Source: a virus | Direction: 5' to 3' (one strand) | IMG/VR virus record: IMGVR_UViG_3300037296_000147 | Span: 1 to 28,152 of that record | DNA length: 28,152 nt | Part shown: positions 3,124 through 24,857 of the stretch, piece after piece | Position numbering within the stretch: the stretch's first letter is position 1 | How the letters are laid out: the number at the start of each line of letters is the position of its first letter | Translations under genes and position numbers: made by a program | Notes under the pieces: generated by a model | Database searches by the model: none | What the model saw: the letters and a program-made list of their open reading frames with translations, nothing else | Told to the model about the DNA's origin: nothing

Positions 3124-4803
3124 CTAAAGACGGGTTTTTCCATAATAAGCGATGGAGCGAGGGCGAGAGTCCCATCTCAATATATGAGACGTATCCACCG
3201 TATTGACACTTGTTATCTCCCCGGCTCCTTCACCTGGTGTGTTTGAAACCGCTGAATCCACCAAGTTTTCATCTCTAACAGCTTGAGTAAACAACTTATC
3301 AGCCCATGCAGCACCAAAGTATCCTCCGGAGCGCCTTGCTACTTGTATTGTTGTTGCATCTTGGTGACTACCAAAAACACGCCCGCTGTCCACGCCATGC
3401 CCATCATCAAACATACGAATAAACTCACCGCCGACCATCGGAAGAGAGACAGTAGCCGAACCATCCAATTCATCAACAAATCCGTAATAGCCGCCATATG
3501 CAATCGGGTCTGCGTCTTTAGTGGATTGTGCAATGTAGTTTGATGATGCGGCGGCTTTAGCGCACGCAATCGGATGGTGAATGCTGTTGATTTCTGACCC
3601 ATCAAGTGCGTATTCCCCTGGACTTAAAACATCAACAGTGTCTGTATAAAGCTTCGCAATGTCCAAAACGCTACTGCCCGTTTTCGGGTTAATCTGGCTC
3701 GCTATATAAAACGCTCCAGCAATGTATCGCACTGTGAGCAATGCGGTTTCAAATATCTGTGTGTCAGACACAACGCCAGTCAGTGATATGGGCGCTAGAT
3801 CATCGATTTTAATTGTGAAAGTAGACGTGTTATTTGCTGAGACAATAAACGAGAACTCGTCGTAGTCGTTTAACTCTGTAATTTTTGTCGTTCCAGCTTT
3901 CGACGTTAAGACGATATCGTTTTCATCACCGCTTACATCGAATAATTTTTTACCACCTGGCGATTTAATATCTTTTAGATACGACATTTCGCGCTCTTCT
4001 GTTACCGCGCCCGAGGCGTCTAGTTCCGCAATTTTCGTTAGGTAATGTTCAATGCCATTCCCATCTACGTAATCAGCAAACGGCCCCGTATCAATAACGA
4101 ATTCACACGCCGCGGTCATGTCCGAAATATCGCCCTGCAGGCTAACGTTTAGCCAAATTTCATTAGGGAAAGTCGCGGTGGTGATTTCTTGCGCCGCCGC
4201 ATTTTTGACACGAACACCGCCAACATAACCAATGCCTGCCGCGACGCTATATGTTCCAGCCGATCCGGTGACTTTCCAGCCATCACCCAAGAAACCTTCA
4301 TGGCCGTAAATATCAAGATTCGCTAACCGCTCGCGCTCATCAATACCACTAAGCCGCGCATTAAAATCAATTTGCCATGTTTCCGCTGATACGTTGATTG
4401 ATGTGGCTTGCTGAATACCCAAGTAGGAAATTAAGAAATTACGTGTAATGGTATTACCCGCTACAGCGCCATCGTTTTTATTTTTTTCGGTTAATGGCAC
4501 GTATGTCACAGCGATCAAAACACCTTCATCATCGACTAACCCAACCCAATTGAATTGATAGTTACCAATGTTCGACCCCATGACCAACGAGTAAACCACT
4601 TGGTTGGTGTTTACATAGCCCGATTTAGTGACACTCAATTGATCGACGACATAACCGGCCGATGGAATAGATTCTATTCGTGTGGCTGGCTCGCCGCCCA
4701 AATCTGGCACGTTCGCCAAGATAAATTGGGTAATGTTTAGCGTGGCGTTGTCGCCTTGTTTTTTTGCAATTTGCTGCTGTCCAGCAATGGTAATAAACGG
4801 CAT
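3124..4803 (-). CDS. Tail fibre protein with DUF3751-type collar-fibre N-terminus
   Basis: 559 aa. Residues 1-150 match the phage tail-collar fibre domain (DUF3751) in pattern: start MPFITIAGQQQIAKKQ, then a GYVNTNQVVYSLVMGSNIGN stretch and 'FNWVGLVDDEGVLIAVTYVP'. This domain fixes the fibre to the baseplate. The middle is beta-rich with Ser/Thr/Asp, and the C-terminal ~150 residues have a tail-collar-like segment (GEFIRMFDDGHGVDSGRVFG) common in receptor-binding tips. It follows gpI and precedes a fibre chaperone, the usual order J-I-H-G of P2-like phages. It determines host receptor choice; the receptor cannot be read from sequence. Confidence 0.8.
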   Translation of the reverse strand: MPFITIAGQQQIAKKQGDNATLNITQFILANVPDLGGEPATRIESIPSAGYVVDQLSVTKSGYVNTNQVVYSLVMGSNIGNYQFNWVGLVDDEGVLIAVTYVPLTEKNKNDGAVAGNTITRNFLISYLGIQQATSINVSAETWQIDFNARLSGIDERERLANLDIYGHEGFLGDGWKVTGSAGTYSVAAGIGYVGGVRVKNAAAQEITTATFPNEIWLNVSLQGDISDMTAACEFVIDTGPFADYVDGNGIEHYLTKIAELDASGAVTEEREMSYLKDIKSPGGKKLFDVSGDENDIVLTSKAGTTKITELNDYDEFSFIVSANNTSTFTIKIDDLAPISLTGVVSDTQIFETALLTVRYIAGAFYIASQINPKTGSSVLDIAKLYTDTVDVLSPGEYALDGSEINSIHHPIACAKAAASSNYIAQSTKDADPIAYGGYYGFVDELDGSATVSLPMVGGEFIRMFDDGHGVDSGRVFGSHQDATTIQVARRSGGYFGAAWADKLFTQAVRDENLVDSAVSNTPGEGAGEITSVNTVDTSHILRWDSRPRSIAYYGKTRL

Positions 4804-4828: not shown

Positions 4829-5440
4829 TTAAAGGGTTGCTACGTCCAAATTCCACGAATGGCCGACGGCATCATTTCGCATTGTCGCGACAATACCCCA
4901 CGGCCCCGTTGATTCCTTCGCGACATCGAAGAAACTTAAATGACCAAATTCAACCACACTGACATTCATTTCAACGGCTGTTAATACGGTCAATTCATAA
5001 CGTCGGCATGTACGCCCATACTGCTGAACGATGTAGCTTAATAGTTCGGTATTAGACGCCACTTGCGAATCGGAAAGCCGCAAGGAAACTACGTCCCAAT
5101 TCACGGCATCTTCTCGTTCTACGATCTCTAAATAGCCGATTCCTAGACGCTCAAATATCTGGATGAATCCCGTTTTTGAACCCGCTTCCATAGCGTTTTG
5201 TTCGGCGTATTTAACGCGTTTTCTGAATAGCTCGTCTGGTTCATCGTTAAAGCGTGTTACGTCTTTTTGATAAGCGTGATACTTCAATAATGCAGCACTG
5301 CATGTTTCCGCATTCATTTGATTAAGCGGTGTTTTTATCCAGTCTTCGACTTGGTCCCACCAGTTACCAAACGCGCTTTTTAAGCTACCTACTTTCTCAC
5401 CGTTTTTTTGCCAAACCGGTAATGGGTAACGGTCTGCCAT
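4829..5440 (-). CDS. I: Tail protein I-like baseplate component
   Basis: 203 aa, between baseplate J and the fibre. The pattern of an aromatic/charged N-terminus, a helical segment with 'FRKRVKYAEQNAMEAGSKTG' at about 71-90, then 'IFERLGIGYLEIVE', agrees with P2 gpI family members, which join the tail fibre to the baseplate wedge. It starts 2 bp after the J stop and is followed by the fibre gene after 25 bp. P2 gpI is of similar size. The call depends on both pattern and conserved J-I-fibre order. Confidence 0.65.
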   Translation of the reverse strand: MADRYPLPVWQKNGEKVGSLKSAFGNWWDQVEDWIKTPLNQMNAETCSAALLKYHAYQKDVTRFNDEPDELFRKRVKYAEQNAMEAGSKTGFIQIFERLGIGYLEIVEREDAVNWDVVSLRLSDSQVASNTELLSYIVQQYGRTCRRYELTVLTAVEMNVSVVEFGHLSFFDVAKESTGPWGIVATMRNDAVGHSWNLDVATL

Positions 5441-21412: not shown

Positions 21413-21925
21413 TTACGTATCGCCAATACTATACCTAACCCACACCCTTTTAAACCTTGCTTTGTACTGCTCTACATTCTTAGGCGGTAGCCACTCATCC
21501 AATCCTTTTGCGCCTTTTTGTCTGTTTAATCTGGCCTCGACGGCGACTAGGTTTATTGGATCGTTAGCAAACTGTTTTCGCTTTTCCTTGCTCCATTTGT
21601 CCGCGCCGTGATCCCATGCCCATTTCAATGGCACTATGTGGTCTATGTCGATCTTTGACGCATCAAAAATCACTTCACCGGAATACATGGAAATCCAACG
21701 ACCAAACACTACACGGCATTGTTTGTCAGCATTAAAACGAACAGGTGTTGTTGATAGTGAAATAAGAAGCTCTTGTCTGGTATTTTGGCAATCTCTGTCA
21801 ACATCCGCCCAGCCGCTACCGAACTCACTTCGTTTGTATTTTCTATCTCCACCCTTGTCTCCCGCCAAAGCTATGTTTGTTGCTAACAGCGATACAACTA
21901 ACCAAAATACGCACCACTTTTTCAT
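21413..21925 (-). CDS. Exported HNH endonuclease (DUF1524/GmrSD-C-like)
   Basis: 170 aa from ATG 21925 (GTG 21928 also possible). Residues 1-21 are a signal peptide (basic MKKW, hydrophobic 5-20, ALA-G end). The mature part has 'FGSGWADVDRDCQNTRQELL' and the beta-beta-metal nuclease core D95-H96-I97-V98-P99, N125 and N134 with K137, the pattern of secreted HNH proteins. C46 and C70 could form a disulfide. It would cut DNA or RNA in the periplasm or outside. In a prophage accessory block such a nuclease could destroy entering phage DNA or give the lysogen a nutritional advantage; both are inference. The ORF is intact. Confidence 0.8.
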   Translation of the reverse strand: MKKWCVFWLVVSLLATNIALAGDKGGDRKYKRSEFGSGWADVDRDCQNTRQELLISLSTTPVRFNADKQCRVVFGRWISMYSGEVIFDASKIDIDHIVPLKWAWDHGADKWSKEKRKQFANDPINLVAVEARLNRQKGAKGLDEWLPPKNVEQYKARFKRVWVRYSIGDT

Positions 21926-22028
21926 CACTAGTTAACCTTAATATATGTAAAATTTAAGAACGTGCCGTGCCGCGCACTCCAGAAAACTATAAACTAACTA
22001 ATTATCTTCAATAATAAGGACATACATA

Positions 22029-22745
22029 ATGAATAAAAAGGAAAATTTAGAGCCCTTTCATAAGGCACTCGACGATGACAAGGGGCTGAAATCTAAACGG
22101 CAAATGATGATGTATGTAGCCTTAATCACGCTAGCATTAACGCTATCAGCTGCGACAATTAAAGAAGCTAATACTTTCCTGTTTAAGTTAGATTTTCTAA
22201 AGCCTGAAGGGTTAATGGCTTTACTATTTATGGCAAATTTTTTTTGCTTTATCCGATATCAAAACTACTCGACTCCACATGAAGATGCTCTAAATAAAAT
22301 TTGGCAAACACGGCTACTATCTGACTCTAGAGTGACAAAAATAAATAATGAACATAGATGTTATGAAGGGATCCTAGGGGATATTTACAGTGATATTTAT
22401 GATCATCATAGTAGTAACGTCAACCCGGGAGAAGAACCATACTCAGTTGAAATAAAATATAAAAATAGATTCATATTTTTTCGATATCTAATTGTTTCCT
22501 ACGATCATCGTGAGTATGAGTATCCAACCATTCAGTCATACAACATATCAAGAGAAATTGATTTTTTTCAATACTTAAAGCTCCTCTGGGTTGAGGTAGA
22601 TTTGAGAGGCCACTTTATGATTAACAATAGAGAAACCCTTGACCTATTAGCTCCAAAATTAATTTCAATATTTGCTTTCTTATCGGTTCTAATGAGAGAT
22701 AAGTTATACCTATTCACAGATTTATTTTTTATAGTACCTCAATAG
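22029..22745 (+). CDS. Membrane protein of unknown function (moron)
   Basis: 238 aa, start ATG 22029 with AAGGA 10 nt upstream. Two hydrophobic segments lie near the N-terminus (about 29-45, MYVALITLALTLSAATI; about 60-75, LMALLFMANFFCFIRY), giving a hairpin with a charged cytoplasmic N-terminus. A soluble part of ~140 residues follows, rich in Tyr, His and Asp ('YSDIYDHHSSN'), and a last hydrophobic segment is near 211-235. The sequence is AT-rich and strongly unlike its neighbours in codon use. It is transcribed alone from the gap shared with the nuclease gene and ends at a strong terminator. Candidate superinfection-exclusion or abortive-infection membrane protein by position only. Confidence 0.6.
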   Translation: MNKKENLEPFHKALDDDKGLKSKRQMMMYVALITLALTLSAATIKEANTFLFKLDFLKPEGLMALLFMANFFCFIRYQNYSTPHEDALNKIWQTRLLSDSRVTKINNEHRCYEGILGDIYSDIYDHHSSNVNPGEEPYSVEIKYKNRFIFFRYLIVSYDHREYEYPTIQSYNISREIDFFQYLKLLWVEVDLRGHFMINNRETLDLLAPKLISIFAFLSVLMRDKLYLFTDLFFIVPQ

Positions 22746-22747
22746 CA

Positions 22748-22773
22748 AAAACGCCCCATCATCGGGGCGTTTT
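22748..22773. terminator. Bidirectional rho-independent terminator between convergent genes
   Basis: AAAACGCCCC (22748-22757) pairs perfectly with GGGGCGTTTT (22764-22773) around a 6-nt loop. The A and T runs on the two sides make it work in both directions. It ends both the membrane-protein gene on plus and the early operon / KilA-N gene on minus. Confidence 0.92.
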
Positions 22774-22776
22774 ACT

Positions 22777-23307
22777 TCAATAGTTTTTACTTGTCATGTG
22801 CACCACATGCAGTCGTTCGTAGGCGTTTCCGTACAACCTTGTGTTTAAGGCTTTCAACGCTGGAAAAACCGTATCAGAAAACTCTTTTTTCATACTGGTC
22901 GTATGGGAATGGATAAGGCGCATTTTCTTTTCGTATTGAATGATTTGTTGCTCTAGTACAGAAATGTACTCACTTTGCTGAACCACCGCCACTTGCGAGC
23001 CATTTGCTTGCTGTTGCTGGTCAAAGGCACGGATAACATAAAGATGGAATTTAGGACTAATCCACATGGCATAGGCATAAACCAATTCTTTGCAAACCCA
23101 AGTGCCAACACCTCGAACGCTCTTTAAAGGGTTGTCCACATCTGGACAAGTAGATATTTCATTTATCAAATCTTTGGTTTGGCAAAGCCTTAGAAACTTA
23201 GTAGGACGATTTTTATCTTCCGTGCCACTTGCTCTATGTAGATCATTTAGGGAATACAGTCCGTCTTGAGTACGAACATCTTTAGATAGGATCGTTAAGT
23301 TATTCAT
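22777..23307 (-). CDS. KilA-N domain protein, probable antirepressor
   Basis: 176 aa from ATG 23307, chosen over the GTG at 23343 because AAGGA lies 9-10 nt upstream. Residues 16-95 form a KilA-N domain: '[14 protein letters not shown]', 'RPTKFLRL', '[20 protein letters not shown]' and 'YVIRAFD'. KilA-N proteins bind DNA and many serve as phage antirepressors (P1 KilA/Ant, P22 Ant group). The C-terminal half has a Gln-rich link ([10 protein letters not shown]) and a coiled coil, probably for oligomerisation. It is the last gene of the early operon and is preceded by a C4/P4-CI-type RNA regulator that covers its ribosome site, which strongly suggests an antirepressor that must be kept silent in the lysogen. 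Confidence 0.85.
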
Positions 23308-23314
23308 GATTGTC

Positions 23315-23357
23315 TTTCCTTGAGTATGCGAAATAACTACCACTCAATGAGACCAAT
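23315..23357 (-). promoter_or_regulatory. seqC-type target: ribosome site of the KilA-N gene plus second pairing segment
   Basis: Two parts complementary to the antisense segment at 23378-23403. The proximal part, 23315-23325 (ACTCAAGGAAA in the mRNA), contains the Shine-Dalgarno and matches 11 of 11 bases of the antisense segment. The distal part (TTGGTCT in the mRNA, 23350-23356) matches 7 of 7. Pairing would hide the ribosome site. This corresponds to seqC of P4 or the target boxes of P1 C4 RNA. Confidence 0.75.
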
Positions 23358-23489
23358 CACTGGGTGGCAGGGGAAAAGGGTTGGTCTACCGAACTCAAGG
23401 AAACGGCGAGCACAAGGCTCCCCCAATCCCCCACCATAACAGGGAGATTGCGCACAAAAAAAGCCGCTTAGGGCGACTTGCTGCGCCAT
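23337..23489 (-). CDS. Possible 50-codon ORF across the antisense RNA
   Basis: An ATG at 23489 opens 50 codons (starting [14 protein letters not shown]) through the terminator and antisense RNA and stops next to the GTG 23343. The segment is structured and conserved as RNA, so an open frame is weak evidence for protein. In P1 a small ORF, icd, sits between the C4 RNA and ant, and its translation controls ant, so the ORF is worth listing. No ribosome site is visible in front of it. Confidence 0.2.
23363..23435 (-). ncRNA. C4 / P4 CI-like antisense RNA
   Basis: GGTGG (mRNA strand, 23431-23435) pairs with CCACC (23363-23367), extended by GGG/CCC across a 2-nt bulge, and closes a ~73-nt domain. 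Inside are a small hairpin GAGC-loop-GCTC (23408-23420) and an unpaired antisense segment (23378-23403, seqB). seqB is complementary to an upstream segment (23486-23511) and to the KilA-N ribosome-site region (23315-23325 and 23350-23356). Phage P4 CI RNA (79 nt) and P1/P7 C4 RNA (about 77 nt) have this architecture and are cut from the leader transcript, in part by RNase P. They silence downstream genes by premature termination and block of translation. Complementarity is seen; processing and function are inferred. Confidence 0.8.
23456..23478 (-). terminator. Leader terminator/attenuator ahead of the antisense RNA
   Basis: In the mRNA, AGTCGC pairs with GCGGCT (6 bp with one G-U) around a 5-nt loop, followed by seven T. 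The stop codon of the 30-codon leader ORF lies in the loop, so a ribosome reaching the end of the ORF would melt the stem. Confidence 0.75.
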
Positions 23490-23560
23490 GAGTATACGAG
23501 AGACCAATCCCGACGCTGGATTTTGCCAGCGCGTGGTAATGATAGTCCTTGTTTTTTCAT
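23468..23560 (-). CDS. 30-aa leader peptide overlapping seqA and the attenuator
   Basis: ATG at 23560 overlaps the TGA of the 141-aa gene (AATGA), so its translation is probably coupled to that gene. It encodes 30 residues starting MKKQGLSLPRAGKIQRRDW and ending in SKSP; the stop TAA is in the loop of the attenuator. The peptide is basic and unlike a structured protein. Similar short frames are found upstream of P4/P1-type immunity RNAs in enterobacterial prophages, some annotated in the Ash or Icd-like group; this is from memory and unchecked. Its likely role is to let ribosomes cover seqA and open the attenuator, and the peptide itself may have none. Confidence 0.6.
   Translation of the reverse strand: MKKQGLSLPRAGKIQRRDWSLVYSWRSKSP
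23486..23511 (-). promoter_or_regulatory. seqA-type segment, alternative partner of the antisense RNA
   Basis: In the mRNA this segment contains TTGGTCT, which pairs with AGACCAA of seqB, then ACTCA with TGAGT, then GG with CC, with small internal mismatches. It resembles the ribosome-site region downstream (shared TTGGTCTC and ATACTCA blocks). It lies within the leader ORF, as seqA does within translated sequence in P4-type systems. Confidence 0.7.
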
Positions 23561-23982
23561 TCTGTCAATGTCTCGTTTAGCCTTGGGCTGTTTGTGGTTG
23601 TTTTTGGCGGCTCCCCAAAAAACTCATTTATTCGCCTTTTCATTTCCATCCCTCGCATCGCTTCAAATACATGCGGCATATCACATGACGTTACCGCGCT
23701 CATATCAATCTTGAAATCATGATTAAAAAAGTGGCTTTTTGGCACCTGTATGGATGCCGCGACGCGTTCGCCTAGCAAGCGTTTGTTATCGCATTCTAGG
23801 ACGGCCATTTTCATTAACGCCTCGTCTATGATGTGTTTTGGCACCACGTAACTCTCTACGCGCCCGTGCCTGACGATTTGCATCGTATCGGCACAATTTA
23901 CCGCTGTGGCTAGCGTTCCGCTGTCTATCTGCCCCAGTGTTATTTTCTGTGCACGTTCTATGGTGGTTTCTAAGTCGCTCAT
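23557..23982 (-). CDS. Hypothetical early phage protein (141 aa)
   Basis: 141 aa, ATGA overlap with the exonuclease gene before it and AATGA overlap with the leader ORF after it. The sequence is helical, with a His/Phe-rich 'VPKSHFFNHDFKIDMSA' segment and a Thr/Asn/Pro-rich C-terminus (PPKTTTNSPRLNETLTE). No known domain, membrane segment or zinc motif is seen. Because it is the last cistron read before the RNA switch, its translation level could influence the leader peptide and so the KilA-N gene. Function unknown. Confidence 0.55.
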   Translation of the reverse strand: MSDLETTIERAQKITLGQIDSGTLATAVNCADTMQIVRHGRVESYVVPKHIIDEALMKMAVLECDNKRLLGERVAASIQVPKSHFFNHDFKIDMSAVTSCDMPHVFEAMRGMEMKRRINEFFGEPPKTTTNSPRLNETLTE

Positions 23983-24560
23983 TTTGGCACCTCGGTTTTC
24001 AACGCCCCTTTGAATGCTTTCAACACCTCAATGAGTATTTTCGCTTCGTGTCTCGCGTCGTCTAGTGCCCTGTGCTGAACGCCTTCGAACGGCAAATCTT
24101 TCTTTGGATCAATATCCAACAACTCGCGGCCAAATAACACAGCGGTGCGTATGGATTGATTCGAACCAAAATCCCACGGCGCGGAACATCCTAGTTCCGT
24201 TTTGAATGCGTGCTCTAAAATCATGTTGTCGAATTCAGGGCCATTTCCGAAGACCTGCGGGCGCTTGATGCCCGTCTGCTCTATCCATTCCCCAAACAAT
24301 TCTAAACCGTCTTTTAACTCTCCATCATTGAAAGGCTTAAACACCTCTTCCCAAGCTTCAAAATTTTCATTTCTCTGCTTTTCCCACCACGCCATTGTTG
24401 ATTCGCTTACCGTTCGCCCTGGCTGATTTTCCCCCATAACGCAATTAAACGCTTCCCCAATAGTTAGTGTTTCGGTATCTACGACCACGGCACCAATGGA
24501 TAGAATAACCGCCGTTTGTAGCGTGTCTTTTGTTTCAATGTCTGTAACGATGACTTTCAT
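23979..24560 (-). CDS. DEDDh 3'-5' exonuclease (Rv2179c/RNase T-like)
   Basis: 193 aa. Motif I is D7-I-E9-T (VTDIETKDT), motif II D111 in 'NGPEFDNMILEHAF', motif III H163-x4-D168 (HRALDDARHEA). These are the four acids and histidine of DEDDh exonucleases. The 'SIGAVVVDTETLTIGEAFNC' and 'TMAWWEKQRNENF' parts point to the phage 3'-5' exoribonuclease group (DUF5051/Rv2179c-like). It would degrade RNA or ssDNA 3' ends during early infection. It starts at the end of a ~50-bp hairpin-RBS cassette also found before the 82-aa gene and overlaps the next gene by 4 bp. Confidence 0.88.
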   Translation of the reverse strand: MKVIVTDIETKDTLQTAVILSIGAVVVDTETLTIGEAFNCVMGENQPGRTVSESTMAWWEKQRNENFEAWEEVFKPFNDGELKDGLELFGEWIEQTGIKRPQVFGNGPEFDNMILEHAFKTELGCSAPWDFGSNQSIRTAVLFGRELLDIDPKKDLPFEGVQHRALDDARHEAKILIEVLKAFKGALKTEVPK

Positions 24561-24608
24561 AATATGTTTCCCCGTTTGTGTTAAAAATTAAAAACGTGAC
24601 GTGTCACG
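24558..24608 (-). repeat. Hairpin + RBS cassette, copy 1
   Basis: Directly after the TAG of the 82-aa gene lies the inverted repeat CGTGAC-AC-GTCACG (24595-24608), then TTTTTAA, then AACGGGGAAACA before the ATG of the exonuclease gene. The same order is at 24855-24906. In mRNA it forms a 5-bp stem with tetraloop followed by U, like a weak terminator or processing site, with its own ribosome site. Confidence 0.65.
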
Positions 24609-24857
24609 CTATTCCGTTCTTGACCCGCCTATCATTTTCAACAAGCGCGGCTCTACTGGCTCGCGCTGCAATTCGTCTATGATGACCTTCATTTCTTTTC
24701 CGTAGCCAAATTCCCCGTCGTCAGAAACTAGAATTCCTTCACTCACGCCCGTTTCAGGGTTGCGGGTAACGGCCAGCCCCAGTGGGTGCAATACCTCTTG
24801 ATTAATCTTTGCCATCAAACCCAGTTCTGCCAGTTGGTTCCAATCGATTGACTTCAT
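24609..24857 (-). CDS. Small hypothetical early phage protein (82 aa)
   Basis: 82 aa from ATG 24857; the longer open frame to 25031 runs back through the preceding zinc-finger gene and is rejected. The start has the same upstream cassette as the exonuclease gene (GGGGA about 9 nt upstream), which supports it. The sequence (MKSIDWNQLAELGLMAKINQ; 'HPLGLAVTRNPETGVSEGIL'; 'PRLLKMIGGSRTE') resembles small conserved proteins of P2-like phages often annotated only as DUF. No motif for function. Position between two copies of one repeat suggests gene plus leader were acquired or duplicated as a unit. Confidence 0.6.
   Translation of the reverse strand: MKSIDWNQLAELGLMAKINQEVLHPLGLAVTRNPETGVSEGILVSDDGEFGYGKEMKVIIDELQREPVEPRLLKMIGGSRTE

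Follow-up and report, generated by a model that had tools for sequence, protein, structure and literature searches.

The locus examined here raises the question of whether a P2-like phage keeps its KilA-N gene silent in the lysogen through an antisense RNA switch in the leader of that gene. The DNA analyzed (the window) comprises positions 1–28,152 of the IMG/VR record IMGVR_UViG_3300037296_000147, a virus record of 28 kb in which P2-type genes for head and tail accompany the replication gene gpA. The KilA-N gene (22777–23307, minus strand, ATG at 23307) has an intact reading frame and encodes a protein of 176 amino acids (Pfam PF04383, 3.6e-21). An earlier note on this DNA had described three mutually complementary segments in its leader and interpreted them as a switch of the P4 CI/P1 C4 type. 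All three segments were located on the minus strand at the proposed positions, almost to the base. From the sequence, we conclude that this region is a complete antisense RNA unit of the C4/P4-CI type that would silence the adjacent KilA-N gene, and we assign this reading a probability of about 0.88. The family membership, anatomy, pairing, and covariation of the pairing are established by the sequence.

The C4 model of Rfam (RF01695), which had been suggested for searching the region, matched 23360–23441 on the minus strand with 50.5 bits (cut-off 45). The predicted mature C4 RNA spans 23363–23435 (minus strand), and its 5′ end was set by the motif TTAT|GGT, as in phage P1. The closed domain 23435–23363 folds with −32.1 kcal/mol (z = −2.1 relative to dinucleotide shuffles), and the three C4 stems (P1, P2, and P3) exposing the a′ and b′ loops were found both in the Rfam alignment and in the minimum-energy fold. 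The a′ segment, AGACCAA (23381–23387, minus strand), can form 7 bp with the target a2, TTGGTCT (23350–23356, minus strand). The b′ loop, TTTCCTTGAGT (23393–23403, minus strand), can form 11 perfect base pairs with the target b2, ACTCAAGGAAA (23315–23325, minus strand), which contains the Shine-Dalgarno sequence of the KilA-N gene. Together, a2 and b2 constitute seqC, and the a′ and b′ parts belong to seqB. Within the window, the pattern TTGGTCT-N(4–30)-ACTCA has exactly three sites (expected, 0.04), a number that was not reached in any of 100 shuffles. Those on the minus strand are seqA and seqC; the third is seqB, whose complement on the plus strand fits the pattern. No other locus in the window has an 11-bp complementary run in this geometry, and just one of 20,000 mononucleotide shuffles reached such a run.

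A promoter and an isrK/terminator unit were found as additional parts that the earlier note had not named. The promoter, TTGACA-18-TATCAT (23539–23568, minus strand), has 11 of the 12 consensus bases and is the sole promoter-like site in 22600–24700. The transcription start predicted from it, at approximately 23532, coincides with about the first base of an IsrK-like short RNA (23457–23532, minus strand; Rfam RF01394, 65.4 bits, cut-off 50), which contains seqA. The match ends in an intrinsic terminator situated between seqA and C4 (23454–23479, minus strand; a 7-bp stem at 23479–23461 and a T run), so that both features defining the isrK family, a score above the cut-off and an intrinsic terminator at the end, are present. 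Among the 36 leaders with a locatable isrK loop, 32, including P1 with its annotated P1c4 promoter, have their best promoter match ending exactly 12 nt upstream of this loop, and the related leaders have a T run at the equivalent position. A longer complementary pair (e.g., GGACACA ... TGTGTCC) flanks the terminator in several leaders and in P1 (23454–23490 in the window); the stem around the T run could therefore be extended in the read-through RNA.

The seqA segment contains copies of both target pieces, which are placed as the annotated a1 and b1 of P1. The a1 part, TTGGTCT (23501–23507, minus strand), mimics a2 and can form 7 bp with a′, while the b1 part, ATACTCATGG (23486–23495, minus strand), is a partial mimic of b2 that can pair with the b′ loop through the 5-bp core ACTCA, giving a pairing of 7 + 5 bp between seqA and seqB. 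The Rfam model for this part (c4-a1b1, RF03163) stayed below its cut-off in the window (33.7 versus 46.7 bits), but the sequence does contain both mimics, a1 and b1.

The unit was compared with known systems. The order of its elements (promoter, a1, b1, terminator, C4, a2, b2, and start codon) is that annotated for the c4-icd-ant unit of P1 (AF234172), and the spacing is also alike. The two units further share the C4 start motif, the hairpin, the T run, the promoter position, and a b2 element just before a start codon, which in P1 lies about ten bases before the icd start. They differ in the pairing tag (CTGTCAA in P1, AGACCAA in the window) and in the directly controlled gene, which in P1 is icd, needed for the expression of ant, and in the window is the KilA-N gene itself. 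The kilA gene of P1 is a separate gene outside C4 control. The leader of P4 (X51522), whose CI RNA immunity follows the same seqA-seqB-seqC logic, matched the same two Rfam families as the window, with 74.9 bits for C4 and 60.8 bits for isrK. Because P4 shares both families and P1 shares the layout, naming both phages in the original interpretation was right. The phages phiV10 (DQ126339) and ST11-OXA245phi3.2 (MK416010) are of types that differ from that of the window, and they also carry isrK and C4 above the cut-offs with pairing of their own tags. In both, the isrK-C4 unit directly precedes an anti-immunity or anti repressor gene; that of phiV10 is annotated with a Bro-N domain, not KilA-N. 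In Acinetobacter baumannii, the part of the report that we consulted describes a large set of phage-derived bacterial sRNAs with the C4 fold and processing at a GGW motif, and it analyzes no KilA-N target (PMC5320573).

To extend the comparison, KilA-N homologues were gathered from viral contigs and bacterial genomes. Both isrK and C4 scored above the cut-off in 14 of 14 leaders, which had been picked mostly because a motif scan suggested C4. When a covariance model trained on these 14 leaders and the window was run on 122 related loci, 44 had C4 directly before KilA-N; this count takes in the training loci, and not all of the loci are independent of one another. In the related leaders, 43–54 nt separate C4 from the KilA-N start codon. 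In the fetched regions of the Vibrio phages VaK and vB_PvuS_Pm34 and the Providencia phage PSTRCR_117lys, found through KilA-N homology, C4 was not found. Just upstream of KilA-N in VaK (2325–2410 of locus L163, minus strand), the Rfam family sRNA-Xcc1 was matched instead (65.9 bits, cut-off 53), hinting at a different RNA before a KilA-N gene.

The loop sequences vary among these phages, yet each fits its own targets. A covariation check on homologous leaders had been proposed, and it revealed strong covariation of the pairing when loops and targets were swapped between leaders. The mean score of b′ against the Shine-Dalgarno region was 8.33 for own and 5.32 for swapped combinations, and the best of 20,000 permutations reached 6.33 (33 distinct tags). 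The corresponding values for a′ against a2 were 7.02, 5.22, and 6.15 (23 tags). One leader was used per tag, and the statistics otherwise ignore kinship. The evidence for the a′–a2 pairing is this swap test; a crude fixed-anchor pair count was set aside because a2 was misplaced in many loci. In most leaders, the tag is also reflected in the b1 part of seqA; a clear b2 match is absent in a few (e.g., L024). The weak score of the c4-a1b1 model might be taken to indicate chance complementarity or a decayed remnant without function. However, the pattern statistics, the Rfam scores, and the intact KilA-N frame speak against this, and the covariation in the relatives already contradicts it; we consider it very improbable.

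Two observations concern loci with several units. One viral contig (L016) carries two C4 units about 1 kb apart (3896–3982 and 4861–4946). In the upstream unit, a′ fits its own a2, a1 has the tag of the downstream unit, and b2 is missing; it looks like a decayed or recombined copy. The genome of Marinomonas aquiplantarum contains three C4-KilA-N loci (L082, L088, and L095) with different tag combinations (b′ tags CCTACGG, CCTGTGA, and CCTGTTG), a pattern to be expected if none of the RNAs is allowed to act on the others.

We infer the following mode of action from the arrangement of the unit. Transcription would start just downstream of the promoter (23568–23539), and part of the transcripts would end at the terminator after seqA, yielding the short IsrK-like RNA. 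Read-through transcripts would carry C4 and KilA-N and would be processed, by RNase P if the analogy with P1 holds, to a C4 RNA of about 73 nt. A promoter followed by a terminator after seqA would thus give a short and a read-through RNA, as reported for Gifsy-1 (PMC4825925). The two loops of C4 would then bind a2 and b2 of the KilA-N mRNA. Because b2 contains the Shine-Dalgarno sequence, we propose that KilA-N translation is blocked in the lysogen, and this is the simplest mode of action, as annotated for icd-ant of P1. With its copies of both target pieces, seqA may base-pair with the C4 segment of its own transcript or act by titrating C4. As a free RNA, C4 could also act on the mRNA of a superinfecting phage that bears identical tags and may in this way give superinfection immunity.

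The terminator between seqA and C4 also allows a P4-like mode of action, in which pairing of C4 with seqA and seqC promotes premature termination ahead of KilA-N, with the Shine-Dalgarno overlap playing a secondary part. P4 matches both C4 and isrK, and termination is the published mode for its CI RNA, as described in PMC4825925; as summarized there, P4 acts by transcription termination on its replication genes, whereas KilA-N follows in the window. However, b2 covers the Shine-Dalgarno sequence and varies in concert with b′ from phage to phage, and a mechanism relying on termination alone would need no such arrangement. We therefore regard termination as the principal mode as rather unlikely, although it is an alternative to be reckoned with. 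P4 also has a complement of b′ just before an ATG; therefore, P4-type termination may coexist with the translational block.

A third mode is suggested by the isrK-orf45-anrP unit of Gifsy-1 (PMC4825925). This unit resembles that of the window in its isrK leader, its terminator with read-through, a short RNA downstream (processed in Gifsy-1 and predicted in the window), and a regulated antirepressor-type gene, a role that KilA-N would have in the window. In Gifsy-1, the unit was shown to act through orf45, which is coupled to the regulated gene. By analogy, the short IsrK RNA would activate KilA-N in trans via a translated, coupled leader open reading frame (ORF), and the C4 region would mainly be that ORF. 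The isrK score above the cut-off and a 50-residue ORF (23489–23337) that overlaps C4 are consistent with this mode. However, this ORF stops 29 nt short of KilA-N. A conserved leader ORF over C4 was considered and rejected because the frame varies among the relatives and nine related leaders lack an open frame in this region. Moreover, titration of C4 by IsrK would still be compatible with the C4 switch. The Gifsy-1 mode is therefore improbable. Since there is no conserved ORF over C4, unlike in P1 (icd) and Gifsy-1 (orf45), C4 appears to act on the KilA-N start itself. This appears to be a minor variation on the known family, to which the locus is a clean addition; it is not a new mechanism. 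Our literature search, with partial coverage, found no paper on the combination of C4 RNA and KilA-N.

The role of the KilA-N product bears on the purpose of the switch. We suggest that it would act as an antirepressor-like regulator and would have to be kept off in the lysogen. In PHROG, it matched a family of transcriptional regulators and, less strongly, an anti-repressor family, and the DNA-binding KilA-N domain is the only domain recognized. This last point, together with the position of the gene after the gpA replication operon, would also suit a C4 switch that silences some other lytic, toxic, or replication-linked regulator in the lysogen. On the other hand, C4/isrK units elsewhere precede anti-immunity or antirepressor genes (P1 ant, phiV10, and the Klebsiella phage ST11-OXA245phi3.2), and the PHROG match to anti-repressors, although weak, points the same way. 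A regulator of another kind is thus a substantial possibility, although we doubt it. Downstream of KilA-N are two genes, 21413–21928 (minus strand) and 22029–22745 (plus strand), which are 75–83% identical in the closest relative (L002); one has a GmrSD C-terminal/HNH endonuclease-type domain, and the other has no Pfam or PHROG match.

Searches for CI and integrase in the window record gave no match; as this record is probably only a fragment, little can be read into the result. The record of L002, whose KilA-N is 66% identical, contains an S24-peptidase HTH repressor (S24-type CI), a divergent CII-like gene, and an integrase. The S24-type CI would be something for an antirepressor to act on, and these genes of L002 make it likely that this phage group has both a CI layer and an RNA layer. 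The gene order around the unit is common to the window, L002, and the M. aquiplantarum prophage L088. The assignment of the phage to an HP1/K139-like type was not specifically supported: the best capsid matches are P2-family Pseudomonas phages (approximately 40% identity), and the shared gene order is with the Marinomonas prophage.

These results place a C4/P4-CI switch before KilA-N in a P2-like phage and at many other KilA-N loci. They may, somewhat short of even odds, represent a widespread sub-class of C4 that acts directly on the KilA-N start without an ORF of the icd/orf45 type, in which phage-specific tags would define RNA immunity groups and the IsrK-like RNA would act as an internal decoy to lift repression. 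Given how much the tags vary in nature, RNA immunity groups can be predicted from sequence, and a single architecture joins two lines of research, the antisense immunity of P1 and P4 and the IsrK of Gifsy-1.
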